From Thelephora terrestris (taxonomy: Eukaryota; Basidiomycota; Agaricomycetes; Thelephorales; Thelephoraceae): a stretch of DNA of 64,000 bases. Position 1 is the stretch's first letter; each line of letters starts with the position of its first letter. Shown one piece after another: positions 543-39,662 of this stretch. Position numbers and translations under genes: made by a program. Location: the NCBI GenBank assembly GCA_015956445.1, contig WIUZ02000005.1:2046001-2110000 (forward strand). The letters run 5' to 3'. The notes below the pieces were generated by a model. That model was not told the origin of the DNA. It made no database searches and worked only from the letters and a program-made list of their open reading frames with translations.

Positions 543-938
543 GAAGCATGTTGGGTCTGTCTGGTGTCATTGGAGATGAAGTACTGTAGCAGAAGATGGC
601 AGTCCGACTTATCAATTACAGAGTGTAGTGTGGTGGATTTGTAGCAGAGCAAACGGCAGCAGGCTACCACCATGTTACACGCGACGCATATGTATCTCAT
701 AATCAAGAACTGAATGAACGCACTCCACTGTTAGTTTGGACGAAGATGCTGAAGAGGAATAAATACGAAAAAAAATCATGAGGTACAACCGGATCGGAGT
801 TCGGAGAGGGCGAGATGTTCGGTGTGGTCGTCGGTTCCCAACCATAGAGGTGGGTGGGATTGAGAACGCACGGGGGATAGAAAAACGGTCTCGACCGTAG
901 TAAGACAAGATTTTCTTTCAAGAATATTTCTGGCCCCG
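543..938. other. Intergenic stretch between convergent genes
   Basis: This lies between the stop codons of two convergently oriented genes. I see no coding sequence, repeat or RNA gene. Short open frames here have no recognisable domain. Confidence 0.5.
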
Positions 939-2247
939 TCATATTGGAACTTCTTCAATAGTATTTTTATCCCTGACACCATGCTTCGCGGGAGTCTCCC
1001 CGCCCACCTCCCTCGAAATCTCGGGATTCACAGAGTCAGCAGAGGCTCCGTTGCCATTCGTCGAACCTCCCTGGCCGTTAAAATGAATCGAACCGGTTAT
1101 GTCCCCGATGGAAACGTCCCTGCTTGTCAATGCGGTCCGGTTGGCGACTCGTAGAGTAATGAGGAACGGAGCGATGACCTATTTGTGGCCGGGGTTAGAT
1201 CGAAATGTTCCAGGGGTTGTGGTATGTGAGGAAGGGACAGTATCAGCACGAACCTGAGTCATGGTAAGGGGTTTTAGGAAGACATCCGGCAGGAAGCTCC
1301 CGCGTACATACCACGATCCAAGGTACAGTAGAGAGTTAGCGGCGTAAAGGGCAGAAGACTCGACCAAGATGGTGACGAGGGTCGTGTACAGCCTGTCAGC
1401 CCTGACCAGGGGACCCAATGCGCCCCGGATGTCCCTACTATGTAGGATGAGTCGGATAGCAATGAGGAGTGTGAGGAGGACATTGAGGGAGAGAGAAATC
1501 GAGTAGAATGGAGTGCCGGGGTTAAAGGAGTCCCAGCTGTCAACCGGCTGCGAGACCTGGTAGATGAGTGTGATACCCATAGCTGCACCGGTGACGTTAG
1601 CAGAGTGCTGCTATAAGCTTGTGGAGTACATACCCACAGAAGCAAGATACATTAGGCATGGGATGGCGATGACCCAGTAGTTCATAGCATAGATAATAAA
1701 GCAACGATAGAGCTAGAGGAATGGTCTATGTCAAACATCCGGGTAGCTAAGTTCAAGACGGGGCTCACCAGAAGGCCATCGGCTAGCCAGACGTTCACGA
1801 GGACCAGAGTGTTTGCAACCAGAGCAACCGCCGTGCGATAGAGGACGATCTCGTACGCGACGGGCCCATCCTGATCGTAATCTCGGTCATCGATGTAGCA
1901 AATGGATTGAATGTGGAAGCCCATCCCAACGTATATTGTGGCAAACGAGAACATGGCCACAGTATGGGCTACGAGTCCCCATTTGATACTCCTCCTCGTG
2001 CGATCGAGAGGATTGAGCAATGCGCTCGTACATTGGAAGAAGAGGGCGATGACCACCCCTGGGAACAACGAAAAATATATATAGGGGAAGTAAGCGCGGA
2101 TAAACGGACGCATGGGGTCGATGTACCATAGAGCAACGCGTCGATAAACGTTCCTGCGAAACTGGCCTTATCTTTGTGGTACAGATAGGATACGATTCGT
2201 GGAGCGTTGGGATTATCTGACCAAGCTTTTGCCGGTTGCTCAGACAT
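939..2247 (-). CDS. Multi-pass membrane protein of an Agaricomycete family (five exons)
   Basis: Exons are complement(939..1178, 1254..1582, 1634..1712, 1769..2058, 2127..2247); they total 1059 nt and give 352 residues with no stop. The start has a strong Kozak context (GCCACCATGT). All four introns are 51-75 nt with GT...AG ends. The protein has about seven hydrophobic segments: one after FAGTFIDALLYG, then around VVIALFFQC, GLVAHTVAMFSFATIYVGM, YRCFIIYAMNYWVI, FYSISLSLNVLLTLLIAIR, TLVTILVESSALYAA and APFLITLRVANRTAL. The tail is hydrophilic. From memory this matches an expanded fungal family of seven-helix membrane proteins with no assigned function. It appears intact. The plasma membrane is a likely site, but that is inference. 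Confidence 0.85.
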
Positions 2248-3156
2248 GGTGGCGACGTGGGCAACTGGCGGAGGACGAGAGGGGGCGGAGTCTGATGGGA
2301 GGAAGTGAAGGGTTGTCGTACACAAATACCTCTGGTATCAATGGGGCCCAAATGAAGACGTACATGCGTGATGCACGATCATAATTACAGACGGGCAAAA
2401 GAACAAACAAGCGTTTGGTTATTGTCTGTAAACATCACCTTCTAGGGGCGCCGTTTCTGATTCAGTGTTCAGTGTTCACCGCGATATCTGCAGAACCCCG
2501 ATGTCAGCCCGAGCTGCAAATCCGACAGAACAGCCGGAGATGTACGCACACGTTCTACGCCCTATTTTGGTCCTTTTTGGCTCGCGTGTTTTCCACAGAT
2601 GTTCCCGATTCCCTGGGTGGGCTGGAAACGTTCTGTAACATTCTCGGAGATGGCCCTTGTGTACGGGGTGTGCACAGTCAGGAGGCGCAACCAATGTAAG
2701 GTACCCTTCCGCTTCAATGCCACCGTAGATGTCATCTTCTCCGAGCGTGGCGAGGAATGGAAAAATCCAGCTCAGTGGCGAAGTATAAGCGCTAATCCAC
2801 GAGCGAAACGGTTCGGATGATGCCGGGTGTACATCGGCGTCTGACTACAGCACAACCCTAGGGTTACAGATCCAGCCGTGCAGCGCAGAAGTGATACTTA
2901 TCTATCAGATCATCTCCGCAGGTATCCAGGTCCTCTGATCAACGATAACGATTTCAGCTCCGCTCGGCTTCAGTCAGGCGTCTCTGCTGGCTCTGCGCGA
3001 GAAGAAAAGATAGTCGGATGCACGCCAACAATGCGGGTTCAAAGCGGCGTACGATCTGCGTGGGTCCCTGCCAGGGACTGAAGTACTGATCATCAAGGGT
3101 TCAAGAAGGGGAACTCTTCTTCGGCATAGATTGCGCGTCCGCTGAGCGGCGATTGA
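2248..3156. other. Intergenic, no gene recognised
   Basis: I see only short overlapping frames without domains. There is no repeat or tRNA. The 5' region of the membrane-protein gene lies at the left end of this stretch. Confidence 0.4.
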
Positions 3157-3167
3157 CAGACCCGAAT

Positions 3168-3202
<35 letters not shown>

Positions 3203-4084
3203 CATAAGTTTCTAAGAGTGACCTACGTACATCGCGTATTCTACCAATTAAGAATATTGCGGATTGGGGAGAGTGCAGACGACGCTACACCCTGATTTCT
3301 GTTTTAGGCTGAAGTCCGAGAATGCTAATAAAATAAAAAGGAAGGGGGGGAATGGGAAGGGGAGGGGGGAGTAGGAACTATCGACAATGAATGGGAAGGT
3401 GGAGGTAGCATTCAAAGGGTGCGGTTCCAACCGCTGGGGGGGAGGAAAGGGAAGTGAAAAGAATCGAACGTCCGACACGCGGGATTGACGTTGCCGCACA
3501 CCGCTAAGTCCGTACAATGGGAAAAGCTCTCGCACAAGAAGTCGAGACCGATGATCGAACACAGGTCGGTTGCCTCCCATTTAATGTCCATGGTCACCTG
3601 AACTTCATCAGATAGGACCACCAGCCCATCCGACCAGGGAGCCGACCTCCTAGGCCCCCTGCATCCCTCCTCGCCCCACTAGCCATCCTCAGGAGTGGTG
3701 GCATCCCTTGTTGTGGGTCTTCATACTCCACCAAGCTCGGTTGCCCGGCGTACTCTCACCACGGACACCCCCTAACCTACTCCGGTCAGACTCCCTTTCG
3801 GTCTTCATGAGTACCGGTGACGCCCCCTGGCCACTTTACCAGGGTTTGAGGAGAGGGGGTTCATGCAAATTGATGTTGGATGACAAGGGGGTAAGGGAGT
3901 GGGGATGCGCTGGACGCCAGCGCAGTTGACTGATTTGGAGAGCTTTCTTGAGTGGATCCAGGGCCCCTCGGACTTGCCTCATGGGCCCCTCCAGCGACGC
4001 CCCACCTCGAAGGTGAGGGGTCCGAGCGTGGGAAAGTTACCGATGGTGGTGGTAACAAACAAAGCGCGTCGCAGACCCGAATGC
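3157..4084 (-). mobile_element. Poly(A)-tailed retroposon with 13-bp target-site duplication
   Basis: A run of about 28 T (from 3170) is the poly(A) tail of an element on the minus strand. It is directly abutted by CAGACCCGAATGC (3157-3169). The same 13 bases recur at 4072-4084, so the insert is 3170-4071 (902 bp) with a perfect target-site duplication. That is the signature of target-primed reverse transcription by a LINE-type machinery. Near 3440-3520 the minus strand has a tRNA-like stretch with a B-box-like GTTCGATTC, but it is in mid-element and does not fold as a tRNA. No reverse transcriptase is encoded, so this is a SINE-like element, a 5'-truncated LINE or a processed transcript. Confidence 0.75.
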
Positions 4085-4654
4085 AATCCTTTCGTGGATT
4101 GCGCAGCCTAGTGAGACGATCAGGATCACCGTCGTTGATCCGAGGATCCGTTGTCGGCTGTGATGGTAGAAACATGTCGGGCTTGTTGAGTTCTTAGGGC
4201 ACTGAGTACTGTCGAGTTAGACGAAAGAGCAAGGGTGCGTCTCATATTATCTGAATCGCGATTGAGAGCCAGATGGCACTCCCGGACAACCTAACCTGAT
4301 TTTGAAACGTGGAATGAGTATGCAAGAGAGAGAGAGTTTGGAGGTTTCAACGAAGTCGCTTCTGACCCTTGGCCGTCTCCATCCCGCCTCGTCTCGTGAT
4401 TTCCGTGGCCTAGTATGAGATGAGGGTCATTTTCTCTGACCCAAGACTTGTTGGTGGTCTACGTCGGGAAAGGACGGGGGAGATGGGAGACTTCTGGTAT
4501 CTGTGACTAGCCAATCGCTCTGGATACTTTTCAGTGCGATATGATTCATGCGATACATCTCAGTTCGCTGGACACCGCTGCAGAAAATTCCAAGCGGGGA
4601 TGATGAGCGCGTTGAACCGCTTATTGCCCACGAAGTACGCCGAATGGCCTATTC
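4085..4654. other. Intergenic between mobile elements
   Basis: No gene is recognised. It contains a short GA-rich run near 4325-4340. Its right end carries the TATTC target duplication of the adjacent solo LTR. Confidence 0.4.
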
Positions 4655-5850
4655 TGTTGAGCAGGTAGAGTATATTCTATACTACTACATGGCGTACTCT
4701 AGTTCTTACCTGAGAGGGGAAGATATAGTAGTGCAAGTGGGAGAGAGAGAGAGAGAAGCGATTGATTAGTCTATGGACACATGAGGGGTATATATACTAT
4801 CTACTCTATTAACGTCACATCTATACAGTGTGACTGATGCATGGTCCGTGCGGCGGCTTAAGGCACGCGTGCGTCATACCGATCGATCGGGTCACTGATG
4901 TGACACCGTCCCTTCGGGTCGCTCATACACACTGGGGGCAAGGGGTCACTTACCCAGCAGATACATTGTGATTACATTGTGATTTTTTAGACAATGTTTC
5001 CAGCCTTTAGCCAGGAGGTACATGCTGAGTTTTTTAAAAAAGTACCCATCAATGCGACCACAATGTGGCCAGTGGGTCCATCTTGATCACTTTTACAAAG
5101 TGCCCATCAATTCGATCACAATGTGCCCTGTGGGTCCATGCAGGATACATTGTAAAAGTATCCATCAAAGTGGTCACTGGGCACTTTGTGAAAGAAACCC
5201 CTGGGTTCTTTCACAATTTTGCTTACAATGTGTCCAGCATACCCCTGAGCCACTCATTGAGAGTTCTTTCATAAAGTATCCAGCAATGTGTCCACAAAGT
5301 CTCAACCAGATACTCAAATGGTTTCTTTGAGAGTTCGTTGTGAAATCCAACCACATTGAGAGTTCATTGTGAAAACATTGAGAAGAACCCCCTGGGGACA
5401 TTGTGGTTGCATTGCTGAGTACTTTTTGAAAGAACTTTCAATGAGTGGCTCAGGCACCCAATAAATTACATTGTGAACAAAATTGTGAAAGAAACCAGGG
5501 GTTTCTTTCACAAAGTGGCCAGTGGCCACTTTGATGGATACTTTTACAATGTATCCTGCATGGACCCACAGGGCACATTGTGATCGAATTGATGGGCACT
5601 TTGTAAAAGTGATCAAGATGGACCCACTGGCCACATTGTGGTCGCATTGATGGGTACTTTTAAAAAAAACTCAGCATGTACCTCCTGGCTAAAGGCTGGA
5701 AACATTGTCTAAAAAATCACAATGTAATCACAATGTATCTGCTGGGTAAGTGACCCCTTGCCCCCAGTGACAGCGCTCTCCGGCATCGGCTCTCGCACGA
5801 AGCGGTGGAGCCGGTTGACCCGTTGCCGGGCACAGACCTTCGGTTCAACA
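4655..5850 (-). mobile_element. Solo LTR of the copia element, carrying a nested CACTA-like insertion
   Basis: This is the reverse complement of the LTR at 10460-14492. It begins TGTTGAGCAGG and ends GGTTCAACA, with TG...CA ends inside short inverted repeats. It is flanked by TATTC on both sides (4650-4654 and 5851-5855), a 5-bp target duplication. Removing the nested 840-bp element and its 3-bp duplication leaves 353 bp. The TATA-like run seen in the other LTR is present near 4791-4798. No internal copia sequence adjoins, so it is a solo LTR formed by LTR-LTR recombination. Confidence 0.88.
4930..5769. mobile_element. Palindromic CACTA-like element, 840-bp subfamily, copy 1
   Basis: The ends are CACTGGGGGCAAGGGG and its reverse complement, and the inverted repeat runs through almost the whole element. 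The flanking ACA (4927-4929 and 5770-5772) is a 3-bp target duplication. CACTG ends and 3-bp duplications are typical of the CACTA/EnSpm superfamily. No transposase is encoded. Short frames inside are read from the AT-rich arms and repeat between copies, so they are not genes. Removing it restores the copia LTR sequence seen at 10460-10596. Confidence 0.85.
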
Positions 5851-5955
5851 TATTCAAAAAGGCTATGAGTTAAATGCCTCGGAAACCCAGTGAGAGGCTG
5901 AGAGCACGGATTTTAGCGAACGAGCTGACGTAGAAATTTGACGAGGTGCTGGTGG

Positions 5956-6698
5956 TAGGGTACGGTGAGAAATTGCTCGCATTTCTAACCAACCGTTATT
6001 AACTTTGGCGGGAGCAGCCCATTCTTAACAACTCTTTCCAACTAGTTATTAACAGATATGTTTAACTGTACATAAGCACACCGGTTATAACAACCAAAGC
6101 ATTGTTCACAGTGTTAGAAATAGTTAAAAATACGCCACCCAACCCTGATCTCACAGAGTTTCCCAATCATCTTCAGTTGGTTCGCGATCCCTTGTCTCCG
6201 TGTGTGTGGGTGTGGCCGTCAAAGTAGTGGCATCCTCTGGGCCTGGTACTGGCCACCTGTCAGAAAGCATGCCTTCGAGGAGTGGTGACCCGAGATCAAC
6301 ATCATCATTGAGGTTGAACTCTCCATCCCCATCCGCAAGATTTCTGGTTTTGTCTTGATCCTCATCCTCATCTTCTCTCACATTCTCTGCCATGAGGTCA
6401 ACGACTCAACGGGTGGCCTTGGCGTAGATCTCCCTTTCGATGCTGCAGAAAGCAACAACCGGTCTCTGCAAGGGTTTACTTCTGGGATTTTGTCGAACGG
6501 AAACCAACCCCATTGGTCGTAAACTTTCTGGGATGATTTTGCTACTTGTATATAGCTTCCCTGTCTTGGATCGGTGCCCGGCAGGTGGCCACTGACGGGA
6601 AGGGCAAGCAAAGTTAATAACATGCAGTTTTGACCTCAAGTTCTCGACAAGTTAATAACAGGTCTGTTAATAATTCGGGCATTCCCCACCGTACCCTA
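5956..6698. mobile_element. hAT-like MITE, 743 bp
   Basis: The terminal inverted repeats are TAGGGTACGGTG and CACCGTACCCTA. They are flanked by GCTGGTGG (5948-5955) and GCTGGCGG (6699-6706), an 8-bp duplication with one mismatch. TAGGG-type ends with 8-bp duplications fit the hAT superfamily. GTTATTAAC-type subterminal motifs recur in both arms (near 5995, 6045, 6613, 6650 and 6667). Two short minus-strand frames (6151-6393 and 6406-6639) carry no transposase domain, so the element is non-autonomous. Confidence 0.78.
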
Positions 6699-9539: not shown

Positions 9540-10459
9540 ATGCGTCAGAAAAAAGTTTCCAACGCACTAAAACACCATCGCGCCACCTTTCATCTCGCTC
9601 GGCATAGCCCAGATCGTTGGGAAGAGGAGAAGAATGCTGCCTGTTCCGAGAGCCTCTGTGAAGCCCGGGACAGGGCACGTGTTGCGAAGAAGAAAGCAGA
9701 GACAAACAAAACATTGCTGAAGCACAGCCAGCAGCAGGTACGCCTGAGCCCTGTCCACGAATACGAGCTGCAAGCCCATGAGACCATTGAAGGTTGCCCT
9801 TGTCCACGAGCAATTGGCCACTTCGGAAACGACGGAGGAACATCTACAGCAAGTCAATTCAACAATCTCAGACGAGCTCAGGAAGAAGAAAAATGACCTG
9901 GAAAGGACAACCGACAATTGCTCCAGGTTGCGGGGCCGTACCTCGAAGCTCTCCAAGGAGGTGAAGAGACTTCGGGTGAAGGCGCTCCGTGCACCTGGAC
10001 AAAGTTTCCTCGCAGTCGAAACGGCGCTTGCGAGAGCCGCAAACAAGTCTGGGGGGCAACCTGACATCTGGAGGATCAAGCGCGATGATGGCCGAATCAA
10101 AGACTGGGTTCGTGACCTCACCTGCAAAATGATCTGCATTCGGCATGTGCCTGCGTCGCAAACTCCTGGTGTCATTTCTGACGTCGTTCGGGCATTCAAA
10201 ACCCATGTTGATGGCCACGACGGGCCCGATAACGAGGATTCTGACGTCGGCGTCAACCGCGGAGATGTTGAGACTTTCAGCGACCGTTTGGCCCGTAGAT
10301 TTCCAGTTGAGGGTCACGTTATGGAACATATTCAGGTCGCAAAAGAGTTTAAGGCTGCGCTTGGTTAAGTATCATCAGCACTGTCTATTTCATGCAAGGA
10401 CTAACTGAACTCAAAGCCTGGACTGCCAGTGGCGACGGAACAACCCACAAAGGCGCGAA
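9540..10459 (+). pseudogene. Transposon-associated coiled-coil gene, cut by the copia insertion
   Basis: Exons 9540..9737, 9793..10363 and 10417..10459 join in frame. The product has a Lys/Glu-rich coiled coil (KKKNDLERTTDN onward), a segment like RDDGRIKDWVRDL, and then GDGTTHKG. From memory, GDGTTHKGxN marks a protein that often accompanies DNA transposons (Tnp2/KDZ type) in mushroom-forming fungi. The frame breaks exactly where the copia LTR begins, two bases into a codon; GCGAA at 10455-10459 would be the target duplication. The rest of the gene is not found in the window. The first exon may have further exons upstream. Confidence 0.6.
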
Positions 10460-10639
10460 TGTTGAACCGGAGGTCTATGCCCGGCAACGGGTCAACCGGC
10501 TCCACCGCTTCGAGCGAGAGCCGATGCCGGAGAGTGCTGATCAAGCGACCCGAAGGGACGGTATCACATCAGTGATCCGATCGATCGGTATGACGCCACA
10601 GGGTTCAGCTATCTTTCCTCCATGGGTCATGGGCCATGC

Positions 10640-12010
10640 AACGTTGTACAACGTGTTGTACAACCCATGACCCATGGAGAAAAGATACCATTGTACAACC
10701 CATGACCCATGGGTAATGGAATAGTATCCGTTGCCCATGCCCCATGGGTTGTACAATGGTATCTGTTGCCCATGCCCCATGGGTTGTATAACACTACCCC
10801 TTCCCCATGCCTCATGGGTTGTACAATGCTATCCTTTCCCCATGGGGCATGGGTTGTACAACGCTATCCAATTCCCATGCCCCATGGGTTGTACAACGCT
10901 ATCCAATTCCCATGCCCCATGGGTTGTACAACACTATCCGTTCCCCATGGGTCATGGGTTGTACAACGCTATCCATTCTCCATGGGGCATGGGTTGTACA
11001 ACACTATCCATTCTCCATGGGGCATGGGTTGTACAACACTATCCAATTCCCATGCCCCATGGGTTGTACAACACTATCCGTTCCCCATGGGGCATGGGTT
11101 GTACAACATTATCCGTTCCCCATGCCTCATGGGTTGTACAACACTATCCGTTTCCCATGCCCCATGGGTTGTACAACACTATCTGTTCCCCATGGGTCAT
11201 GGGTTGTACAACACTATCCAATTCCCATGCCCCATGGGTTGTACAACGCTATCCAATTCCCATGCCCCATGGGTTGTACAACACTATCCGTTCCCCATGG
11301 GTCATGGGTTGTACAACGCTATCCATTCTCCATGGGGCATGGGTTGTACAACACTATCCAATTCCCATGCCCCATGGGTTGTACAACACTATCCGTTCCC
11401 CATGGGTCATGGGTTGTACAACGCTATCCATTCTCCATGGGGCATGGGTTGTACAACACTATCCAATTCCCATGCCCCATGGGTTGTACAACACTATCCG
11501 TTCCCCATGGGGCATGGGTTGTACAACGCTATCCATTCTCCATGGGGCATGGGTTGTACAACACTATCCAATTCCCATGCCCCATGGGTTGTACAACGCT
11601 ATCCGTTCCCCATGCCTCATGGGTTGTACAACACTATCCGTTTCCCATGGGGCATGGGTTGTACAACGCTATCTGTTCCCCATGGGTCATGGGTTGTACA
11701 ACGCTATCCATTCCCCATGGGGCATGGGTTGTACAACGCTATCTGTTCCCCATGGGTCATGGGTTGTACAACACTACCCATTCTCCATGCCCCATCGGTT
11801 GTACAACACTATCCATTCTCCATGGTGCATGGGTTGTACAACACTATCTATTTTCCATGCCCCATGGGTTGTACAATGCTATCCAATTCCCATGCCCCAT
11901 GGGTTGTACATCACTATCCAATTCCCATGCACCATGGGTTATACAACAGCATCTTGTGCCCATGGGGCATCAGTTGCAGAATGGTCTCCTTTCTCCATGT
12001 CCCATGGATT
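10640..12010. repeat. 35-bp minisatellite, left arm of the hairpin
   Basis: About 39 tandem units. Each contains the palindromes CCCATGGG (or a CATGGGTCATGGG variant) and TTGTACAA, separated by CGCTATCC or CACTATCC. Because 35 is not a multiple of three and the unit lacks stops, all three plus frames stay open for over 430 codons. Confidence 0.9.
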
Positions 12011-12270
12011 ATATCACTATTCCAGGAAAGGAGATACTTTATAAATCAACCATTAGCTGTGTGAATTTGAAAAAATTAGACTCTGTTTGTATGCATGATA
12101 GACCATATATCAGTTTGTGGCTCTAACCTAATGGAAACTAAACTTAACCTGATAGTAGCCACAACCCAATCCTCAATCTAACCTGAGCCAATGTAAACTT
12201 GACCCATGAACCTAAGCCTAACCTAATCCTAAACCTGGTCTAATCCCAAATCTAACCCTAACCTGACCTG

Positions 12271-12333
12271 ACCTAACCTAACCTAACCTAACCTAACCTA
12301 ACCTAACCTAACCTAACCTAACCTAACCTAACC
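12271..12333. repeat. (CCTAA)n array, left inner arm
   Basis: About 12 perfect pentamers, the complement of TTAGG, with degenerate units on both sides. It mirrors the longer TTAGG array at 12942-13055. Confidence 0.9.
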
Positions 12334-12941
12334 TTATCTGACCTGAACCTACACCTAACCTAACCTAAAACCACTCTCACCCTTTGTTCTGTGCTATCTC
12401 AAAGCCTAACCATAACTCTAGTTCACCCACCCATATTAATCCTTGTGTGGAATATGTTATAAGTCTATAAACCATATGTTTGTAGGCCACTTGCTTGTGG
12501 GCCCAAGGAGGTGGATGAACTTGAGTTGTGGTTTGTCTGTGAGATGGCACAGAACAAAGGGTGAGTGTGGTTTGTGGTTGAACATGGGTGATAAGCATGA
12601 TGCTGGGTTGCTGATGATATATATGTGCGTCTGTGGACTTATGGGATGGTTGGGCACAGAGTGAGGGGACTGCAGTTTGCTTTATGGTCCTGTGACCCAA
12701 GTCATATGTTTGCAACTGGGTGAAGTTAGTCTTGGCTGGCATACATGACATTAGGCTGAAACAGGTCATGATAGGTAGGTTAGGTTTGCCCATACCAGGT
12801 TAGGTTAGGTATAGGTTAGTATAGGTATAGGTTAGTTTAGGTATAGGCTAGGTTAGGTTAGGTTAGGTTAGTTTAGGTATAGGCTAGGTTAGGTTAGGTT
12901 AGGTTAGGTTAGGTTAGGTTAGGTGTAGGTTCAGGTCAGAT

Positions 12942-13055
12942 AAGGTTAGGTTAGGTTAGGTTAGGTTAGGTTAGGTTAGGTTAGGTTAGGTTAGGTTAGG
13001 TTAGGTTAGGTTAGGTTAGGTTAGGTTAGGTTAGGTTAGGTTAGGTTAGGTTAGG
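12942..13055. repeat. (TTAGG)n array, right inner arm
   Basis: About 23 perfect TTAGG pentamers, with further degenerate TTAGG/TATAGG units at 12780-12940. It is longer than the left copy, so the arms differ in array length. Confidence 0.9.
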
Positions 13056-13309
13056 TCAGGTTAGGGTTAGATTTGGGATTAGACCAGGTTTAGGATTAGG
13101 TTAGGCTTAGGTTCATGGGTCAAGTTTACATTGGCTCAGGTTAGATTGAGGATTGGGTTGTGGCTATTATCAGGTTAAGTTTAGTTTCCATTAGGTTAGA
13201 GCCACAAACTGATATATGGTCTATCATGCATACAAACAGAGTCTAATTTTTTCAAATTCACACAGCTAATGGTTGATTTATAAAGTATCTCCTTTCCTGG
13301 AATAGTGAT

Positions 13310-14150
13310 ATAATCCATGGGACATGGAGAAAGGAGACCATTCTGCAACTGATGCCCCATGGGCACAAGATGCTGTTGTATAACCCATGGTGCATGGGAA
13401 TTGGATAGTGATGTACAACCCATGGGGCATGGGAATTGGATAGCATTGTACAACCCATGGGGCATGGAAAATAGATAGTGTTGTACAACCCATGCACCAT
13501 GGAGAATGGATAGTGTTGTACAACCGATGGGGCATGGAGAATGGGTAGTGTTGTACAACCCATGCCCCATGGGGAAAGGATAATGTTGTACAACCCATGC
13601 CCCATGGGGAAAGGATAGTGTTGTACAACCCATGCCCCATGGGGAATGGATAGTGTTGTACAACCCATGGGGCATGGGAATCAGATAGTGTTGTACAACC
13701 CATGGGGCATGGAGAATGGATAGCGTTGTACAACCCATGAGGCATGGGAAACAGATAGCGTTGTACAACCCATGGGGCATGGGAATTGGATAGCGTTGTA
13801 CAACCCATGGGGCATGGGAATTGGTAGTGTTGTACAACCCATGGGGCATGGGAAATGGATAGTGTTGTACAACCCATGCCCCATGGAGAATGGATAGCGT
13901 TGTACAACCCATGACCCATGGGGAATGGATAGTGTTGTACAACCCATGGGGCATGGGAATCAGATAGCGTTGTACAACCCATGCCCCATGGGGAAAGGAT
14001 AGCATTGTACAACCCATGAGGCATGGGGAAGGGATAGTGTTGTACAACCCATGGGGCATGGGCAACAGATACCATTGTACAACCCATGGGGCATGGGCAA
14101 CAGATACTATTCCATTACCCATGGGTCATGGGTTGTACAATGGTATCTTT
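13310..14150. repeat. 35-bp minisatellite, right arm of the hairpin (inverted)
   Basis: About 24 units, the reverse complement of the left array, so the right arm is shorter than the left. The unit order differs in the middle, while the inner ends are nearly identical in inverted orientation. Confidence 0.9.
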
Positions 14151-14347
14151 TCTCCATGGGTCATGGGTTGTACAACGCGTTGTACAACGTTGCATGGCCC
14201 ATGACCCATGGAGAATTGTCACGATGTATGGTCCATGACCCATGGAGAAAAGATAGCTGAAGGGGCTCATGATGCGCGCGTGCCTTAAGCCGCTGCACGG
14301 ACCCTGCATCACTCACACTGTATAGATGTGACGCCAATAGAGTAGAT

Positions 14348-14357
14348 AAGATATATA
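14348..14357 (+). promoter_or_regulatory. TATA-like run in the copia LTR
   Basis: A GATATATATACC-type stretch. The same element is present in inverted orientation in the solo LTR near 4791. It is the likely core promoter of the copia transcript. Confidence 0.5.
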
Positions 14358-14492
14358 TACCCCGCATGTGTAGATAGATCAGAAAATCGCTTCTCTCTCT
14401 CTCTCCTCCACTAGCAACTATCTACCTCTCCCCTTCAGGTAAGAATTAGAGTATCCATGTAGTAGTATAGATTATACTCTACCTGCTCAACA

Positions 14493-14507
14493 GGTTATGA
14501 GCCCGGG
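14493..14507 (+). promoter_or_regulatory. Copia primer-binding site (half-tRNA type)
   Basis: GGTTATGAGCCC follows the LTR directly. It is complementary to the anticodon arm of initiator tRNA-Met (GGGCTCATAACC in yeast). Priming from an internally cleaved initiator tRNA is known for some Ty1/copia elements. Confidence 0.65.
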
Positions 14508-15200: not shown

Positions 15201-17720
15201 ATGTCTTCTCAACTCACCTCCCTCGTCCCCGTCCTCGCCGGCCCCAACTACCAACAGTGGGCCGGACCTATGCGCTCATATCTGATGTCGCAAGGACAGT
15301 GGAGGACGATACAGAAAAAGGAACCTACCCTCGAGGTATGGCCAAAAATCGAAGCCACCTATGACGCCGAGAACAACTTATTGACTCAGGCTCAGGAAGG
15401 CACCGATAACCAGGACGAAGTAGACGCGTGGGCCGAAGCAAATGACAAGGCCCTCGGCAATATTCTCCTGTGCCTTGCCCCCGATATCCAGTACAAGTAC
15501 CGAGCAGAAGTCAGTGCTGCCAACCTTCTCAAAGAAATCGAGAAGGACTATGGAAAGCCAGGCATCATCGGTATCTACCTGGAGTTCAAACACGCAATGG
15601 AAGTCAGGATCCTTGAGGGTCAAGACCCCACGGCCCCCGTAGACAAGTTCCTCTCCCACATCAGCCGTCTCGAAAGCAGTGGGCCGGACGCCATCGTCCC
15701 TCCCTTCATCAAGACGATGATGCTCATGTCAAAGTTACCCCCGTCCTACAACAATATCCCTCAGGCGATATGTCAGACGGAAAACATGAGCAAGCTCGAT
15801 GTGGACAGTCTACGGTGGACCATCATCCTCGCGTGGGAACAAACGTCGAACGGTAAGGGCAGACAGCAGGCCCACAGACTGTCGAACGTACAGCACGCCC
15901 CTGGAAATCCCAACTTCCAGCAGCAGCAGCAGTATGGCAGAGACCAGCCCCAGGGCCAAGGAGGTTGCGGACGAAATCGCCGAGGAACCAGAGGAGGACG
16001 GGGAAGGTTCCAACAACAGGCACAGCAGACTGAAGAGTCTCCCGTCCCCCCTCCTATGCCGCCCTTCTCCCCTCAACCTCCGGTTGCGTCTGGCTCCGGT
16101 ATGTCAGTCACCAACTACGGCTTTGCCTCCATGGCAGCCTTCCCTCTGCGATCCCTCCCGGTCCATCGTGAAGGTGCAGGGACTCCCTCCTTCTACCCCT
16201 CCGTTCAGAAGGCAAGGGATCTCTTGGCCCGGTTAGGTGTACAGCCCACGATCCAGACCCTCAAAAGACTGGAACGCTCCTGTGAGCAAACGGTTGATCC
16301 TCGCCCCCGCAAAAAGGCGCGTACCCCACCGGGCGAGGATGAGGTGAGCCTAGGATGGTCAAGTGACGAGATGGTTGTCGGGTCCCCTGCGTTTGTTGAC
16401 GGCCCGTCTGGCGGAAGGTACGGAACAAGTATTCAAGTGTTGAGTAACAATACTAACGACTCCACAGCAACTGAAGATAAGACTAGGTCTTCAGTAGTAG
16501 CTTCCGAATATACTTGTTTTACCCTGTCCGCCCTGAGTGAAACTGAGGCTGTGTGGATGCTCGATTCCGGAGCATCCCGGCACTTTACCTTCGATATGAA
16601 TGATTTTGTTGAATACGAGGCAATTGAGCCCATTCCTCTAAGGACTGCGACTAACTTCACAACAATCATCGGTAAAGGAACAGTGATCCTCTATGTAGAC
16701 GAAAGAGCTGTTAGACTAAACCCTGTCTATTTTGTTCCAGAAATATCCCATAGGCTATTGTCCCTTGGCCAGTTCCTAAAAAGCGGACTCTTCTCGAGGG
16801 GGAGTGCTCGCGAAATCTCGCTTTTTGAAGAAGAAACTGAGTTTCTTACCTTCCACCCTCGAACCGAGGATGATAGTATCTACATCATCAGAACTCTCCT
16901 CGGGGCGCAACTCACTGCCGCCAAAATTGAAACCATTTACAGTGCTGATTTTGAGATCATGCACCGCCGACTGGCTCACCCCTCTAAAGAAGTGATCCAA
17001 AAGGCCGGGAAACATGTCAAGGATTTTCCTCATGTCGAAATCCCAAAAGAGCACCTCTGCACTGGATGCGCGCAAGGAAAGATGACCAATAAAGCCTTTC
17101 CCCCATCCAGCACCAGAGCAACTGCCCCTTTCGAGCTGATCCACTCGGATCTAAAAACCTTCCCCATTGAATCCTATCGCAAATACAAGTACTCAATCGT
17201 CTTCTATGACGACTATACCTCACATGCCTGGACCATGAATTTGCGCACTAAAGACGCTGCACTCGTGGCTACCAGGCACTTCCTGGCTATGGTTGAGACC
17301 AAGTACCAGAAGAGAGTACGCCGATGGATGTCCGATGCCGGGGGGGAATACACGTCCCTAACATTTACGACGATGCTCAAGGAAAAAGGGATTGAGATCC
17401 TCCAATCTATCCTGCACGCACACCAGCAAAATGGCCGCGCGGAGAGGATCATTCGAACACTGATGAATAAAGCGGAATCCATGAGATTGCAGGCTTGCCT
17501 CCCTCAATCCTGGTGGGAATTCGCCATTGACCACGCAACTCACGTTTACAATCGAACGCCGAATCGTCGCCTAAACTGGCAGACTCCATTCCAGCTGTTA
17601 AATGGAAGTAAGCCCTCGATTGATCATCTTCGAGTCCTCGGTTGCGGAGCTTACGTCTTCATCCCAGAAGAAGTACGAATAAACAAGCTCGCACCCCGGT
17701 CAGAATTGATGACCTACTTG
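15201..17720 (+). CDS. Ty1/copia polyprotein, Gag-protease-integrase part (interrupted)
   Basis: The frame begins MSSQLTSLVPVLAGPNYQQW, a typical copia Gag start, and follows a 700-bp leader. Gag runs to about residue 260, followed by Pro/Gln-rich sequence. I see no CCHC knuckle. The protease motif is VWMLDSGASRHF (DSGA). The integrase zinc region HRRLAH...CTGCAQGK and the catalytic triad (HSDLKTF, MSDAGGEY, NGRAERI) are present. The frame is open from gag through integrase and is cut at LMTYL by the insertion at 17721; it resumes at 19999. Reverse transcriptase and RNase H are absent from the window. Confidence 0.9.
17716..17720. repeat. Target-site duplication ACTTG (left)
   Basis: This ACTTG recurs at 19994-19998. 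Collapsing the two copies restores the copia reading frame without a gap. Confidence 0.85.
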
Positions 17721-17740
17721 TGTCAGGGTTGTGGGCCTGC

Positions 17741-18364
17741 TTACTGTTTAGGGGACGCTAGAGGATTAGCGGATGGGTAAGGAGTATCGGCTCGGACTTT
17801 GAAGGGAGTTCCGGGCGTGGCGGTGAGGGGAGGAGGAGTATCAAGAGCGAGCGGTGAGTTGGTTTGATAGGGATGAACGGCGGAGTGGTAGTCCTGGCAG
17901 AACTGACTCAGTTGCTGAATAAATGGATCGAAGTCTTGATCGCTAAGACGTTTGAAGCTGACGAGATATTCTAAAACCGAATAAGGTAATTCAGTTGGCA
18001 CTTCCCACCACAAGACGATGATAGCAGGGGAATGGGTGTGAATATTAGTGGTAAGATGAATGCGGGGGCTGGGAAAGTAGAAGGCTGGGCTTATACTAAA
18101 ATAGACGGTTGCTAAGACGCTTTCGGTGACGTCTGAATTCCAAAGGAATTGATGATCAGCTCCTAGGAGAAAGGGGGAGGTGGTGAAGCCTGAATCGAGA
18201 GCCACGAAGGGGCGGTAATAAGGGAAATGAGTAAGTAAACCGGCAGTACGGTTTACCTGAAGGCTTCTGATGAGCTTATACTCCCAGATAGACCTTCTGA
18301 CATCAGGGACGGTCGGGCGTTGAATGGGGCTGGTAGAGGGAAATGGATTGGGGGCAGCAAACAT
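17741..18364 (-). CDS. ORF of unknown function in the 2.27-kb element
   Basis: A single-exon frame of 207 residues ending 20 bp inside the element's left end. It is proline-rich at both ends, with a central part holding PYYRPFVALDSGF and IIVLWWEVPTELPYS. I recognise no domain. It is divergent from the ORF at 19012, with about 650 bp between the starts. It is intact, but its expression is unknown. Confidence 0.5.
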   Translation of the reverse strand: MFAAPNPFPSTSPIQRPTVPDVRRSIWEYKLIRSLQVNRTAGLLTHFPYYRPFVALDSGFTTSPFLLGADHQFLWNSDVTESVLATVYFSISPAFYFPSPRIHLTTNIHTHSPAIIVLWWEVPTELPYSVLEYLVSFKRLSDQDFDPFIQQLSQFCQDYHSAVHPYQTNSPLALDTPPPLTATPGTPFKVRADTPYPSANPLASPKQ

Positions 18365-27400: not shown

Positions 27401-28440
27401 ATTCCCCAGCTCGTCCCCGAGCCCAACGATCGTCTTGAGCTCATTCGCTATGCTCACGATGTTATGGGACACAAGGGAATCTTCGCTACTACCCAGTCCC
27501 TTCTTGTCCGGTTTTGGTGGCCCGAGCTAGCCAAGGACGTCAAGTGGTATGTCAGGACTTGTCACGAGTGCCAAGTACGCCAGACCAAGTACTTCCACAT
27601 ACCACCGGTCGTTCCTACGGTTCCCTCCTTGTTCCGAAAGGCTCACATGGACACTTTCCTCATGCCTCGTGTTGGGAGTTACCGCTATGTTCTTCATGCC
27701 CGATGCGTGATGAGTTCTTGGCCGGAAGGACGAGCCGTTACCGCTGAGTCCCATCGGACTATCGCCGCCTTTATCTTCCAGGACATCCTCTGTCGCTGGG
27801 GAGGTCTTGCTGAGATCGTTACCGATAACGCCGCTCCTTACATCGCCGCGGTGGACCTTCTCGGCGAACAGTACGGTATCCACCACATCAGGATCTCTGG
27901 CTACAACTCTCAGGCGAACAGCATCGTTGAGTCTAAGCACTTCGACGTTCGCGAGGCGATTATGAAGACTTGCGGAGGCAACGAGTCAAAATGGCGGGAA
28001 GTCCTTCCCCAAGTTTTCTGGGCTGAACGAGTTACTATCCGGAAGTCTACTGGATATTCCCCCTACTTCCTCGCTCACGGAGTTCACCCCCTTCTTCCCT
28101 TCGATATCCTCGAGTCCACGTTCCTAGCACCCAAGCAGGATTTCGGAATCTCCACCGAGGAACTAGTAGCGCTCCGAGCGAGGCAATTGGCGAAACGGCC
28201 TGAGGATCTAGAAGAAATGAGATCAAAGGTCGCGAAGTCGCGACAACGGAACATCAAGCAGTTCGAGAAGCAGCACGGCTCTCGGATCATCGACTTTGAC
28301 TTCAAGTCTGGAGCCCTTGTTCTAGTTTGCAATACCCGCATTGAGGAGTCCCTCAATCGGAAGACCAAGCCCCGCTATCTGGGACCCATGGTAGTCGTTC
28401 GCAAGACTATCGGGAAGTCCTACATCGTCGCAGAACTTGA

Positions 28441-28967
28441 CACTGGGGGCAAGGGCCCAAATACCCACCAGGTACATTGTGATTACATTGTGGTTACAGT
28501 CAACAAGTGATCCCAATGTGCCCGGTGGGTAAAAATCAGGTACATTCAAAATGTGCCCAAAAATGTGAATTTAATATTACCGCTGGGCAAATACTGATCG
28601 CATTTACAATGTACCCAGTCATGTGACCATAATGCACCAAAACGCATGTCCTAGGCATATTTTGAATACATTCGATTCACATTGTAAAATCAACGACATT
28701 CAAAATGTGTTCACAATGTACCCCACCAATTCCTCCACATGTTGAATACATTGTGAATGTGATCGTCGATCGCATTCAAAACACTTTTTAGAGCAAGTTT
28801 TGAATGCAATCCACATGTTTGGTGGTGGCAAAATTTGATTCACATGATGGAGTACATTCAAAATGTGTTCACAATGTACCCACTGGGCACATTGGAGTCA
28901 CTTTTTGACTGTGACCACAATGTAATCACAATGTGCCCGGTGGGTATTTGGGCCCTTGCCCCCAGTG
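28441..28967. mobile_element. Palindromic CACTA-like element, 527-bp subfamily, copy 1
   Basis: The ends are CACTGGGGGCAAGGGCCC and its complement, with near-full-length inverted repeats. It is flanked by TGA on both sides (28438-28440 and 28968-28970). Excision with one TGA restores ...AELDGAQSEL in the gypsy integrase tail. The copy at 31144 is nearly identical but in the opposite orientation. Confidence 0.88.
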
Positions 28968-29020
28968 TGATGGCGCTCAGTCCGAGCTGCGAGTGGCTGG
29001 TTTCCGTTTGGTTCCCTACT

Positions 29021-29521
29021 CACTGGGGGCAGGGGCACCTGGAATCAGTGATTACATCCCGATTACATGGTGATTTCATGTGCACTTTTCAATGATTGTA
29101 ATTGCCGATTCCAGGTTGATTACATTTCAAATGTTACCTTGACACGTAATTCAACTGTGCCCACCAACTCCATTTGAAATTTCCTCAAAATGTTCCCAAG
29201 CAATGTTTCCTGAATGTGCCCACTGGGCACATTGTGAAAACATCTCATGTTTTTGAGCGCATTTAGATTACATCTTGGACGATTGAAGAACATGTTGACT
29301 ACATTGCAGTATCATTTTTGCCGACAGGTAAAAAACATCCCAGAAACATTTGTAGAGAACATTCCAAATGTAATTGGTGGACATTGGCTGGATTACATGT
29401 CAAGGTAACATTTGAAATGTAATCAACCTGGAATCAGCGATTACAATCATTGAAAAGTGCACATGAACTCACCATGTAATCAAGACGTAATCACCGATTC
29501 CAAGTGCCCTTGCCCCCAGTG
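29021..29521. mobile_element. Palindromic CACTA-like element, 501-bp variant
   Basis: The ends are CACTGGGGGCAGGGGCAC and a near complement, flanked by ACT (29018-29020 and 29522-29524). Its interior differs from the 527-bp and 840-bp subfamilies, so it is a third family member. Excision restores the gypsy A frame. Confidence 0.87.
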
Positions 29522-29685
29522 ACTTTCCCCGGTCGTCTACGGAGATCCCCATTGTTTCAGACGTTCCCGAGGAAGAGGACTCAACGTGGGAAGATCCCGA
29601 GGACACTCGGTTCTTTTCCTCTCTGCCTGTTGACGATAGGCGTTATATTTCTTCTTCTCCTCCTCTGCTATGATTTTGTTTCCAG

Positions 29686-29775
29686 TTTATGACCCCTTCC
29701 ATGACCCGTTACAACTTTATGACCCCTTCCATGACCCGTTACGACTTTATGACCCCTTTCACGACTCGTTACGAT
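29686..29775. repeat. Three 30-bp tandem repeats after gypsy A ORF2
   Basis: Three copies of a unit with TTTATGACCCCTTCCATGAC, the last diverged. They lie 13 bp after the ORF2 stop, in the untranslated region before the expected 3' LTR. Confidence 0.8.
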
Positions 29776-30309
29776 TTTTCATGACCTTCCCATCCTTCAT
29801 TCTACGAATCTCCACGCATTTCCTTTTTATTCTCCAAGCTCCTTTCTGCCCCCCCCACGAAACCCGAGCCTATTCCTCCATCATCATTTCATCACCTTAA
29901 ATCTCTTTCTTCGAAAAGTTCCTTTAGTTCCTATCGTTTTCTTTCACCCTTTTCCTCGAATTCCAGATCCTATCTTTCCCATCCCTCCTACCAGTTTATG
30001 TTCCACAACGAGTTCTCCAAGTTTCTTCACCAAGTTTCCAGTTCCGCTGTTCAATTTTCCACTTCTTTGCAACGTCCCGCTTTGTTTCTAAAGTCCCGAG
30101 GAGCTTCCCTCTTTGCTTCCACAAGTTTCCACCACGGACTCTTTCTTAGATACTTTTCATCTTCATTCCTCATTCCTTCCCTTCGCGAGAACCAAGAAAA
30201 TGTTGTCACATTCAAAACGCGCGGCGGTGACAAAGTGTGGACACGGCAAAACTAGCAAATACGGAAAGAGAAAGGAAGAGTTACCGAGGGTCTCCAGCCA
30301 GATAGTCCT
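29776..30309. other. Non-coding stretch after gypsy A
   Basis: Pyrimidine-rich sequence without a coding feature. TGTGGACACGG near 30236 could be the start of an LTR, but it does not match the proposed 5' LTR of gypsy A. Confidence 0.35.
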
Positions 30310-31143
30310 TCACTCCCCCTCGGCCTCCTCCGGCTTCTTCTCCTCCCTCAAAACCGCCCTCCTCTTCCCCTCCTTCTTCGACATCGCAAACTCGTCTTCG
30401 GACTCAGAGGACAAAGGAACCTCGGATCGCGCTGGAGTACCTGGATCTTCGACGGTCTTCTCCAGGTCCTCAGCCATGTTCTCTTCCGCCTGAGGACTGA
30501 CAACTCGAGGCTGCGACGGCCCCGCGACTGGCGAACTATCAACGAACATGGCACTGTTTCCGAGCAAGCGAGCCTGGAACTTCCGATCAATGTCCTCCCA
30601 GGCACTCTTTCGCAAATCTAGTCGCATCCTCCGGGAATCTTTGGCGAGGCGAGCACCTAGGAAGTCCGCGTACCATTCCCGGATCGTCATCCTCGGGAGC
30701 TCCAGATTGTCGACGATGTCATCAAACATCTGAAGGGACTCTAGCCCCCCCCGACCGGCACCCAGCTCAGTCTCCTGCACCTCCACGTTGCTCCCCTCGG
30801 AGAAGGCCTTCTTTATCGGAGTCGCAGCAGCCTTCCTCTTCGCCTCAACGGCCTTCTTCCTCCTCCCGATCCCCCCTAGGCTCTCCATGATCGACGGCGG
30901 ATGAAGCATGGTGAACTCGTCCGTAAATGAGCACCGGCACTTGTTCTTCATGCAGTATTCGCACCAGACGGTGACGTAGGCAAGATAGTACTTCCTCCAG
31001 AGCGGAACGCACTTCTTCTTCCTCGACTGGCACTCTCGGCAGGCCTATTCCATTCTCCAATCAGTTCCTGACTCCTCGCGGTCCTCGCAAATCAATACTC
31101 ACCGTCGGGAAAAGCTTCTTCGTCTCCGGTGACAGCCTGGAGT
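30310..31143 (-). CDS. Zinc-cluster-like protein, 5' end lost at a rearrangement
   Basis: Exons complement(30310..31044, 31103..31143) join in frame across a GT...AG intron. The visible 258 residues begin with the end of an exon (KKLFPT), then CRECQSRKKKC and WCEYCMKNKCRC. This spacing, CX2CX6C followed later by CX2CX4C, resembles fungal binuclear zinc clusters. Downstream are KRKAAATPIKKAF, a helical middle and an acidic Ser/Glu-rich tail. The upstream exon is broken by the CACTA-like element at 31144, and the rest of the gene is not on its far side. Similar proteins accompany retroelements in mushroom fungi (from memory). Confidence 0.6.
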
Positions 31144-31670
31144 CACTGGGGGCAAGGGCCCGAATACCCACCGGGCACATTGTGATTACATTGTGGTCAC
31201 AGTCAAAAAGTGACTCCAATGTGCCCAGTGGGTACATTGTGAACACATTTTGAATGTACTCCATCATGTGAATCAAATTTTGCCATCACCGAACATGTAG
31301 ATCGCATTCAAAACTTGCCCTAAAAAGTGTTTTGAATGCGATCGACAATCACATTCACAATGTATTCAACATGTAGAGGAATTGGTGGGGTACATTGTGA
31401 ACACATTTTGAATGTTGTCAATTTTACAATGTGAATCGAATGTATTCAAAATATGCCTAGGACATGCGTTTTGGTGCATTATGGTCACATGACTGGGTAC
31501 ATTGTAAATGCGATCAGTATTTGCCCAGCAGTAATATTAAATTCACATTTTTGGGCACATTTTGAATGTACCTGATTTTTACCCACCAGGCACATTGGGA
31601 TCACTTGTTGACTGTAACCACAATGTAATCACAATGTACCTGGTGGGTATTTGGGCCCTTGCCCCCAGTG
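31144..31670. mobile_element. Palindromic CACTA-like element, 527-bp subfamily, recombinant copy
   Basis: It is the same length (527 bp) and nearly identical to 28441-28967, in inverted orientation, with the same CACTGGGGGCAAGGGCCC ends. Its flanks do not match (AGT left, TTA right). The left flank is a broken zinc-cluster gene and the right flank is mid-ORF1 of gypsy B. This is expected if two copies at different loci recombined. Confidence 0.85.
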
Positions 31671-32194
31671 TTACCTCCTTCTTGGAGCCCGATTCTCCCG
31701 CAGTTTATCTCGACGTCCACAAATATGATCCGACGACTTCCTCTGCTGCTCCCTCCCTCCCGCTACGAGTCATCTATCCTACCTTCGCACCAGGAGTCGA
31801 ACCTGAGTGCATTCTGGACAGTGGAGCGCAAATCGTCGTGATGCGGAAGGATATCTGGGAGAAACTTCGGTCTCCTATCACTGCCAACAAGGCGATGGCT
31901 ATGGAGTCTGCGAACAGTGGTACTACTCTGACCCTCGGGATGGTCGAGCAGCAACCTGTCACTCTAGGACAGATCACTGTTTTCTTGCAGATCCAGGTCG
32001 TTGAGGACGCTCCTTTTGAGGTTCTTCTTGGTAGACCCTTCTTTGACGTCCTATCTTGCATGGATATCAGCCACGCTGGCGGTATTCACAAGATTCACGT
32101 CGGAGATCCCAAGACTGGAACTCCTTACGTCTTCTCGACGAGCCCTCGTCCGCCCAAGCCTTCGCGAGGACCTGCCGTAAATTTTCGTTTGTAG
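31671..32194 (+). pseudogene. Ty3/gypsy B ORF1, protease end only
   Basis: The frame runs from the element boundary to TAG. The protease motif is LDSGAQIVVM, followed by VLLGRPFFDVLSC. It is clearly related to element A but diverged. All Gag sequence is missing because of the rearrangement at its left edge. Confidence 0.85.
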
Positions 32195-34093
32195 GCGATT
32201 CTACGAGCCCCTCCCGACCACGTTTCAGTCATAGCGAAGCGTCTGGTCCCCTCCTAGAATCGTCGCGATCTTTCGGCTTCCTGCAGGCTCTCGATAGCAG
32301 AACTCCTCCCTCCTCTCAGCGATCATATAATCAGTTTTCATGCATGTCTCCCACATTGCCTCTCTCCTCATATGCACCACCATTGGCATCGTTTTCTGGC
32401 TCTTGTCTCCCTTTCTTTCCCGACCCTGTTCCTTTGTTTTCTTCAGATGTCTTGCCTTCGCCTCCCGTTCCTTCTCCTACCTCCCGTTCCTTTTCGCGAC
32501 TTGTTCCCGACCCTTTGGACTGTACTAATATTTCTTCGGACTCTTGTACTTCTTCGGACTTGGCACTTACTTTAGATTCTGACAATCAATTGTTTTCCTC
32601 TTATTCTGCGCATGACTTAAGTTCTCCCTCTTTGTTCCCCACAAGCCAGTTTGTTTCTCCTGATTTCTATCCTACCTCCTCTTGTTTTTCATTTTACGAA
32701 CAGCCTTCCTTCAATATCTCCCCTCCATCTTCTCCCGATGTTATTTCTACTCCCATTGGCTCATTACCTATTGTATCTTCTCCCTCCCGCACTATTCCCC
32801 TTCCTTCTCGACAGGTTCCTGATTTTAGATCTAGATTCCCTTCTCCATCTTCTCTTCGTAGTACTGGTCCTATTGTTTCCTCCACATCTTCCACTTCAGT
32901 AAATTTCTATAGTTCTCTCACCTCCTTTTTCACCTCCTTCCCCTCCATTGATCGTCGCGACGCCTTCCTGTCTTTTGCCGCCCTCCGTAACGCCATCCCG
33001 CCATCCCCTACAAATCCTTACACACCTCTCCAGCTTGCTAGCGTCTGGCTTACTGAGCACTTCACTCAGAGCCCCTTCCTGGATCTAGGTTCCGATGGCG
33101 ACTTTGAATCTCTTCTCTACAAGAAGGTGGCAAACAAGACTAGGCCGGTAGCGACGACCCTGCCAGAGAACTTCCGGATTGTCTGTCACGAGCATCCCGA
33201 TCCCCTTGCGAATCTCCTCCCTCTCCCTTCTCATCCTCCCGACTTTATCCCGACGGGGAGATTCACTCGCGAGCGCCGTGACAAGATGGACATCGGGAAG
33301 GATCTTCTCTGGCCTGAAGAGATCAAACTAGCTGAGTGGATTGTTGCCCAGCATCACGCAGCTTTCGCCTGGACTGACGAGGAACGAGGTGCCTTTGATC
33401 CCCAGTACTTCACGCCCATCGAGATCCCTCATATCTCGCATGTTCCGTGGGTTCTGAAGCAAGGTCCTATTCCTCGTGGCATCCTTCAGGAAGTCATCAG
33501 GATCATCGAGGACAAGTGGAGGTCAGGTGTCTATGAACCCTCCTCTTCGTCCTACAACTCCCGATGGTTTTGTGTCTTCAAGAAGGATGGCAAGTCCCTC
33601 CGCCTAGTCCACTCTCTGGAGCCGTTGAATGCAGTCACTGTTCGCAATGCCGCAATGCCTCCCTACGCCGAGATCGTTGCAGAGGACTTTGCTGCGCGAT
33701 CTATCTACACCACTCTCGACCTCTATGTTTCCTTCGATCAACGCCAGCTTCACGAGAGGTCTCGCGACATGACTACCTTCAACACTCCTCTGGGTTCCTT
33801 CAGGCTCACCGTTCTCCTGATGGGCTGGACGAACTCTCCCGCCGTTCTTCAGGGTGACGTCACTCACATCCTAAGACCCGAGATTCCTCACTGGACTCAA
33901 CCCTTTGCTGATGACGTCCCTATCAAAGGTCCTAAGTCTCGCTACGAGCTTCCCGACGGTTCCTACGAGACCATTCCTGACAATCCCGATATTCGGCGAT
34001 TTGTCTGGGAGCATCTCGAGGCTGTCCATCGTATCATCCAGCGAGTAGAGTCCTACGGAGCTACGTTCAGCGGGAAGAAGGCCTTTATTGGCA
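32195..34093 (+). pseudogene. Ty3/gypsy B ORF2, reverse transcriptase part, truncated
   Basis: A Ser/Pro-rich leader and then reverse transcriptase (LDLYVSFDQRQ, MGWTNSPAVLQ, FADDV) run without frameshift, so this copy has decayed less than A. It stops at GKKAFIG, where a palindrome-array element begins. RNase H and integrase are not found. The frame that continues to 34260 is only repeat sequence. Confidence 0.85.
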
Positions 34094-39646: not shown

Positions 39647-39662
39647 AAACATCCTCGCCATC

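Follow-up and report, generated by a model that had tools for sequence, protein, structure and literature searches.

The window, a stretch of 64,000 nucleotides from Thelephora terrestris, contains a complete foldback (hairpin) element of 3672 bp (10597-14268) which lies within a copia-type LTR. At the structural level the element is of the foldback class and works like a foldback transposon: its inverted arms are built from tandem repeats, the family to which it belongs (FB-1) has inserted at many sites, always with the characteristic ends and as a rule with target duplications, and the number of repeat units is variable. Hairpin arms, 7-bp duplications and mixed, unequal ends are found in two families, FB-1 and FB-2, which are therefore assigned to the non-autonomous foldback DNA transposons. 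It is very probable that they represent a non-autonomous, foldback-type family of TIR DNA transposons that depends on a transposase supplied in trans, inserts at 7-bp staggered cuts and has halves which can pair with each other.

Structure of the element

Inwards from either end, a 7-bp tip is followed by the inverted repeat, which begins with TTCAGCTATC, and by palindromic 35-bp units; next come a unique stretch and TTAGG-like repeats, and the middle is taken up by a centre of approximately 430 bp. The two tips, CACAGGG (A) and GAGCCCC (B), are dissimilar, and the inverted repeat starts inside of the 7-bp tip. The inverted arms (11504-12344 and 12978-13818) are 95% complementary across 841 nt, the 35-bp units form arrays at 10699-11964 and 13374-14132, and arrays of 5-bp CTAAC/AGGTT-type repeats are located within 12209-12368 and 12797-13113. 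Complementarity and array mapping bear out the initial annotation, which had described a hairpin of inverted arms of 35-bp units around a centre; it had placed the element at 10597 to 14267, of which the left limit is correct and the right limit is 14268, one base further. An Rfam search gave 0 matches. The features of the element, its insertion site and related sequences in the window are as follows.

4654-5851, minus strand: another copy of the same LTR, in which the element is absent; empty site 4871-4877; split by a CACTG-ended element at approximately 4929-5770
10457-14493, plus strand: copia-type LTR split by the element into pieces at approximately 10457-10596 and 14269-14493; left limit only from the match to L049
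10590-10596, no strand: left copy of the target duplication, ATGACGC, from the overlap at LTR copies without the element
10597-10603, plus strand: terminal motif A, CACAGGG, a non-inverted 7-bp tip, from end comparison
10604-12009, plus strand: left arm, with the inverted repeat start TTCAGCTATC and then about 36 palindromic 35-bp units (TTGTACAA..CTATC..CCATGnnnCATGGG)
12010-12208, plus strand: left inner unique arm segment, from genome matches (query 12010-12200)
12209-12368, plus strand: left-arm stretch of (CTAAC)n type, from repeat detection
12369-12796, plus strand: centre, in the window copy of the short-centre form, from comparison with the scored copies
12797-13113, minus strand: right-arm stretch of (AGGTT)n type, from repeat detection
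13114-13312, minus strand: inner unique segment of the right arm, which matches its left counterpart with 99.5% identity across 191 bp
13313-14261, minus strand: right arm, with about 23 palindromic 35-bp units and the inverted repeat at its end
14262-14268, minus strand: terminal motif B, GAGCCCC inward (GGGGCTC on the plus strand), a non-inverted 7-bp tip, from end comparison
14269-14275, no strand: right copy of the target duplication, ATGATGC
15201-17780: copia-type gag/integrase ORF downstream of the split LTR
34092-35040, plus strand: truncated FB-2 copy with end A2, CACAGGTTTCAGCTAC, and palindromic units of 45 bp, cut by an element with CACTG ends; right limit set by eye

TTAGG is the telomere motif of insects, and TTAGG-type arrays stand beside the centre in both families (12209-12368 and 12797-13113 in the window; approximately 480-600 in L028).

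Insertion site and target duplication

The flanks of the element match LTR copies that lack it, which confirms the earlier placement of the element inside a copia LTR. In the element-free LTR of the window the left flank corresponds to 4923-4871 and the right flank to 4877-4654, and the two overlap by exactly 7 nt; on the LTR copy in L049 they correspond to 3840-3701 and 3707-3485, and the overlap is again exactly 7 nt (3701-3707). The right LTR piece has at least 40 further matches in the genome (best 40 of 201 candidates scored). The target duplication of the window copy is 7 bp long with one mismatch (ATGACGC / ATGATGC). Both ends were read in 24 FB-1 copies, which were picked via inner-arm matches and end searches and thus are no random sample of the 53 end pairs in the genome; 20 of these 24 have a perfect 7-bp duplication by a fixed rule, the window copy and L029 have one mismatch, and L014 and L019 fail. 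L019 carries a doubled A end, and when its flanks are counted from the outer A end they match, which raises the numbers to 21/24 perfect and 23/24 within one mismatch. Flanks swapped between copies as a control match within one mismatch in 0 of 552 cases, and the 24 targets show no clear consensus. The initial annotation had given the duplication as 8 bp. This is ruled out, as an 8-bp flank match occurs in 0/24 copies and the two element-free LTRs give 7. That the element moved as a unit is supported by its exact ends, the matched 7-bp flanks and the mixed end pairs.

The FB-1 family in the genome

The genome search covered 40.6 Mb in 60 contigs. When at most one mismatch was allowed, the A end was found at 59 sites and the B end at 63, compared to 0 for the reversed-pattern controls. 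Opposed neighbouring ends within 16 kb form 53 pairs, 52 of which combine A with B and one A with A, and 16 FB-1 ends are without a partner. A looser search with 12-mers added seven A and four B matches (three and seven in the reversed controls), none of which, by eye, completes a further A/B pair within 16 kb. The genome search and the alignment of copies with their flanks, both proposed initially, show fixed ends and target duplications that recur, i.e. a family. Copies that depart from this in their ends and lack duplications are not the rule, the exceptions being L014 and, in FB-2, two of the ten pairs that were read.

Matches to the inner arm (query 12010-12200) are 99-100% identical (best 40 of 103 candidates scored) and matches to the full centre 98-100% (best 40 of 84 candidates scored). 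Judged by this identity the FB-1 copies are recent, in agreement with the recent origin suggested before.

Several ends depart from the simple arrangement. Three B ends lie 807 bp apart at C12:2532028, 2532835 and 2533642, and doubled ends are present in L019 (7456 and 7593), L035 and L042, as if ends had been duplicated through unequal exchange. The A+A pair (C12:1194632-1201219) and L014, the copy with unmatched flanks, are possible products of recombination between copies. The odd ends L036 and L051 (C5), L037 and L050 (C8) and L040 and L049 (C17) appear to belong to copies that were truncated or suffered deletions.

Palindromic units and their spacers

The arms of 16 copies contain between 10 and 72 units each. 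The motif TTGTACAA is present in 1338 of 1390 units that were located by their neighbours alone. In 1346 units anchored outside the blocks, the CATG blocks which flank the spacer are 98-100% alike, with the exception of one outer base (73%) and of the spacer itself (37-57%). As single-strand DNA, two units fold on each other with -18 kcal/mol (z -4.2).

The 3-bp spacers of 1501 family-1 units are CCC (556), GGT (400), GGG (399), CCT (79), GTG (29), CAC (22) and seven rare types, counts which do not represent independent events because units are related through duplication. None of the six possible intermediates between CCC and GGG occurs among them, and for this reason inversion of the whole spacer fits better than point mutation. 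Spacer inversion is contradicted, on the other hand, by the same 1501 units in that GGT is common among them while its reverse complement, ACC, is absent. It is also contradicted by two cases of near-fixation: a diverged group (L029, L030, L031, L033, L044 and L046) has GGT in 57/58 spacers, and in stretches of FB-2 alone the spacer is ACC in 79/81 and GGT in 2/81. When the spacer order of the two window arms is compared, they agree near both ends and diverge in the middle, which is the pattern expected under unequal exchange.

Probable homogenisation of the arms and the centre

Among the scored copies (best 40 of 84 candidates), 35 of 40 contain the sequence of 12510-12780 also as an inverted half, and the centre halves are separated by approximately 78 nt, 65 unpaired bases included. 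The five remaining copies, namely the window copy, L009, L010, L011 and L012, are of the short-centre form and retain only 70 bp of the second half. They also have one arm base in common, and because of this base and the same 70-bp remnant they look like a single lineage in which one half was lost.

In 13/20 copies the left inner segment does not differ from the right one at any of 219 columns. Over these columns the mean number of differences is 0.70 within copies versus 1.37 between copies; L028 is an outlier with arms that differ at eight columns. A private base of L021 is present in both of its arms, and another base is found in both arms of L009 and L010 and in the left arm only of the window copy. 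In the 15 copies with both centre halves, four of 11 private changes occur in both halves and seven in one, and the six fixed differences between the halves are confined to 27 columns on the loop side. Since identical independent mutations are unlikely, conversion or copying between halves and arms, in a patchy manner, is the better reading. Signs of the gene conversion between arms that had been suggested are thus present, patchy as they are.

A second family, FB-2

The FB-2 end CACAGGTTTCAGCTAC occurs 26 times in the genome and its partner end GAGCCCATTCAGCTAC 30 times, two one-mismatch sites included. All 22 FB-2 end pairs are mixed, and 12 ends are without a partner. The first ten of the 22 pairs in list order comprise seven with perfect target duplications, one with one mismatch and two that fail. 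One FB-2 copy is nested in an FB-1 array with GTACAAC at both flanks, and its layout is like that of FB-1, with a palindromic array, further repeats, ACCTA repeats and an inverted centre. FB-2 hence resembles FB-1 in its ends, its 7-bp duplications and its layout.

The long FB-2 copies L053 and L054, which were partly read, contain other hairpins and repeats. L053 harbours a hairpin element (864-4939) nested in the FB-2 array, with 1392-nt arms that are 99% complementary and ends CAGTAGTCCTTATTAAAAAC, at which no clear target duplication was seen. L054 contains two perfect palindromes (3446-4184 and 6024-6501) with arms of 346 and 224 nt (100%) and spacers of 47 and 30 nt.

Other elements and genes in the window

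A nearly palindromic, CACTG-ended element of 840 bp with 58-bp units is present in two copies (4929-5770 and 38807-39646), one of which splits an LTR. It looks CACTA-like, and by eye the copies are flanked by 3-bp duplications (ACA and AAA). At 28440-31671 two 528-nt arms that are 98% complementary, with outer ends CACTGGGGGC, stand 2.2 kb apart. ORFs of the window include copia-type ones and others for retroelement RT/integrase, tnp2, condensation/AMP-binding and KR-domain proteins, a set which, together with similarities to agaric proteins, points to a basidiomycete fungus; the NRPS-like condensation/AMP-binding and KR-domain ORFs (39594-42842, minus strand) lie near repeats.

Search for a transposase-bearing copy

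The initial annotation had stated that the element carries no transposase, and no recognisable one was found in the window copy, nor was any found between the A and B ends of the long copies that were read inside. L034 (9.1 kb), L029 (8.4 kb) and L030 (5.1 kb) have internal DNA in common, which was considered as an element-specific sequence or autonomous partner and rejected because most of it matches repeats outside such copies; for one internal piece of 1198 bp, the best 40 of 508 first-look candidates were scored. Pfam searches with 28 ORF segments of L029, L030, L034, L050 and L051 gave weak matches only, with no family that reached the cut-off. An ORF in L050, which we take to resemble the C-termini of Plavaka proteins, had no Pfam match. 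L036 and L051 (C5:62090-69500) have an A-type end and few units and continue into coding-looking DNA with no Pfam match over the cut-off. An intron-unaware search found two MULE-domain matches over the cut-off, C2:269962 and C60:784179, both more than 200 kb from every listed A or B end.

Proposed mechanism and alternative explanations

It is proposed that a transposase acting in trans recognises an A end together with a B end, as the mixed pairs would suggest, and that the palindromic units of the long arms probably assist this recognition, by analogy with the multiple binding sites of Galileo. Insertion would occur at 7-bp staggered cuts, of which the 7-bp duplications are the visible trace. 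The two halves of a copy may then pair, so that unequal exchange alters the number of units and one half passes some of its changes on to the other, which would account for the observed patterns.

As a first guess, put forward tentatively, the family may be moved by a Mutator/Phantom-type (MULE) transposase such as that of Tm1 from the nematode Meloidogyne. In the available parts of its description, Tm1 likewise has unequal 7-bp motifs that lie external to the inverted repeat, in general one kind per end, and composite arms of short tandem units in variable number. Its copies are mostly non-autonomous, and now and then one has equal ends or lacks duplications (PMC3169594). Two MULE-domain matches are present in the genome, but neither is near any A or B end. 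Unlike the elements described here, Tm1 is reported with mostly 9-bp duplications (8-10 bp, compared to 7 bp) and units of approximately 14 bp (compared to palindromic units of 35 and 45 bp), and a transposase-bearing copy is known in the nematode whereas none was found here (PMC3169594). An unlikely candidate is a hAT transposase of the 7-bp class, hAT7, of rust fungi. The termini of hAT elements presumably differ from the A and B ends. Puccinia hAT families with 7-bp duplications have been described and are, like FB-1, fungal; they are coding transposons, and the accessible text of the source makes no mention of foldback arms (PMC12730594). Movement by a P-superfamily transposase, as in Galileo of Drosophila, is improbable. 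The ends of Galileo are an ordinary terminal inverted repeat. Galileo is foldback-like, with long repeat arms that contain repeated transposase sites and mostly 7-bp duplications, but according to the portions available it prefers the target GTANTAC, whereas the 24 targets here lack a clear consensus (PMC4168063, PMC3688188).

It is doubtful that the two families are a lineage with a transposase of its own, which would need one A and one B end and produce 7-bp duplications, and that the palindromic units are working parts with flipping 3-bp spacers. The spacers (CCC/GGG and GTG/CAC in family 1; GGT in one group versus ACC in FB-2) would flip because a unit pairs with an inverted unit, and as a result of such pairing a copy would partly match its own halves. 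The presence of a tnp2-type gene in the window (PF02992, 48314-50821), the CACTG-ended hairpins nearby and an A end that starts with CAC speak for a derivative of CACTA or Plavaka. This origin is nevertheless very improbable, as the duplications here are 7 bp long, while those of the two CACTG-ended window elements look 3 bp long by eye and those of Plavaka are given as 2 or 3 bp in the part of the source available (PMC12730594). The chance that the hairpin is an artefact of assembly, or that satellite DNA underwent an inverted duplication just once, is negligible. Long palindromes can produce read and assembly artefacts, on which, in the case of foldback reads, a paper reportedly exists. Against this stand many exact-ended insertions, flanks that match over 7 bp, end pairs of mixed type and two empty sites, all within the assembly, and the insertions together with the empty sites refute an artefact as an account of the whole family. 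A foldback-type family moved in trans is thus the preferred explanation.

Relation to known foldback elements

The initial annotation did not recognise the architecture in any described family. It has in fact been described, since foldback elements (FB, Galileo, Tm1 and Tetris) have, in the available parts of the literature, long inverted arms that are made of tandem repeats and enclose a variable middle (PMC3169594, PMC4079207). Tetris from Drosophila virilis is similar in its tandem-repeat arms, in a middle without apparent coding capacity and in that no autonomous copy was found according to the sections available, but differs in its duplications of 8-10 bp and in the TIR-220 repeats of its arms (PMC4079207). 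Foldback elements have been reported, in the texts available, from flies, midges, sea urchin, plants and nematodes, and have been linked to inversions in the case of Galileo and to the birth of satellites in the case of Tetris. No description of a foldback transposon family from a fungus was found among the papers listed in searches of the open-licence literature, outside which most subscription papers lie; the single paper found there that joins foldback, basidiomycete and transposable element concerns, in the part available, hairpin small RNAs (PMC9757828). The elements of T. terrestris are therefore of a known kind, foldback transposons, and form a family for which no description was found in these searches.

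The combination of mixed ends and a 7-bp duplication matches no single family in the parts of the literature covered, which makes the transposase worth finding. The two families are related, recent and numerous, and because equal units stand in two inverted arms, conversion, spacer flipping and the turnover of units can be counted in them copy by copy.
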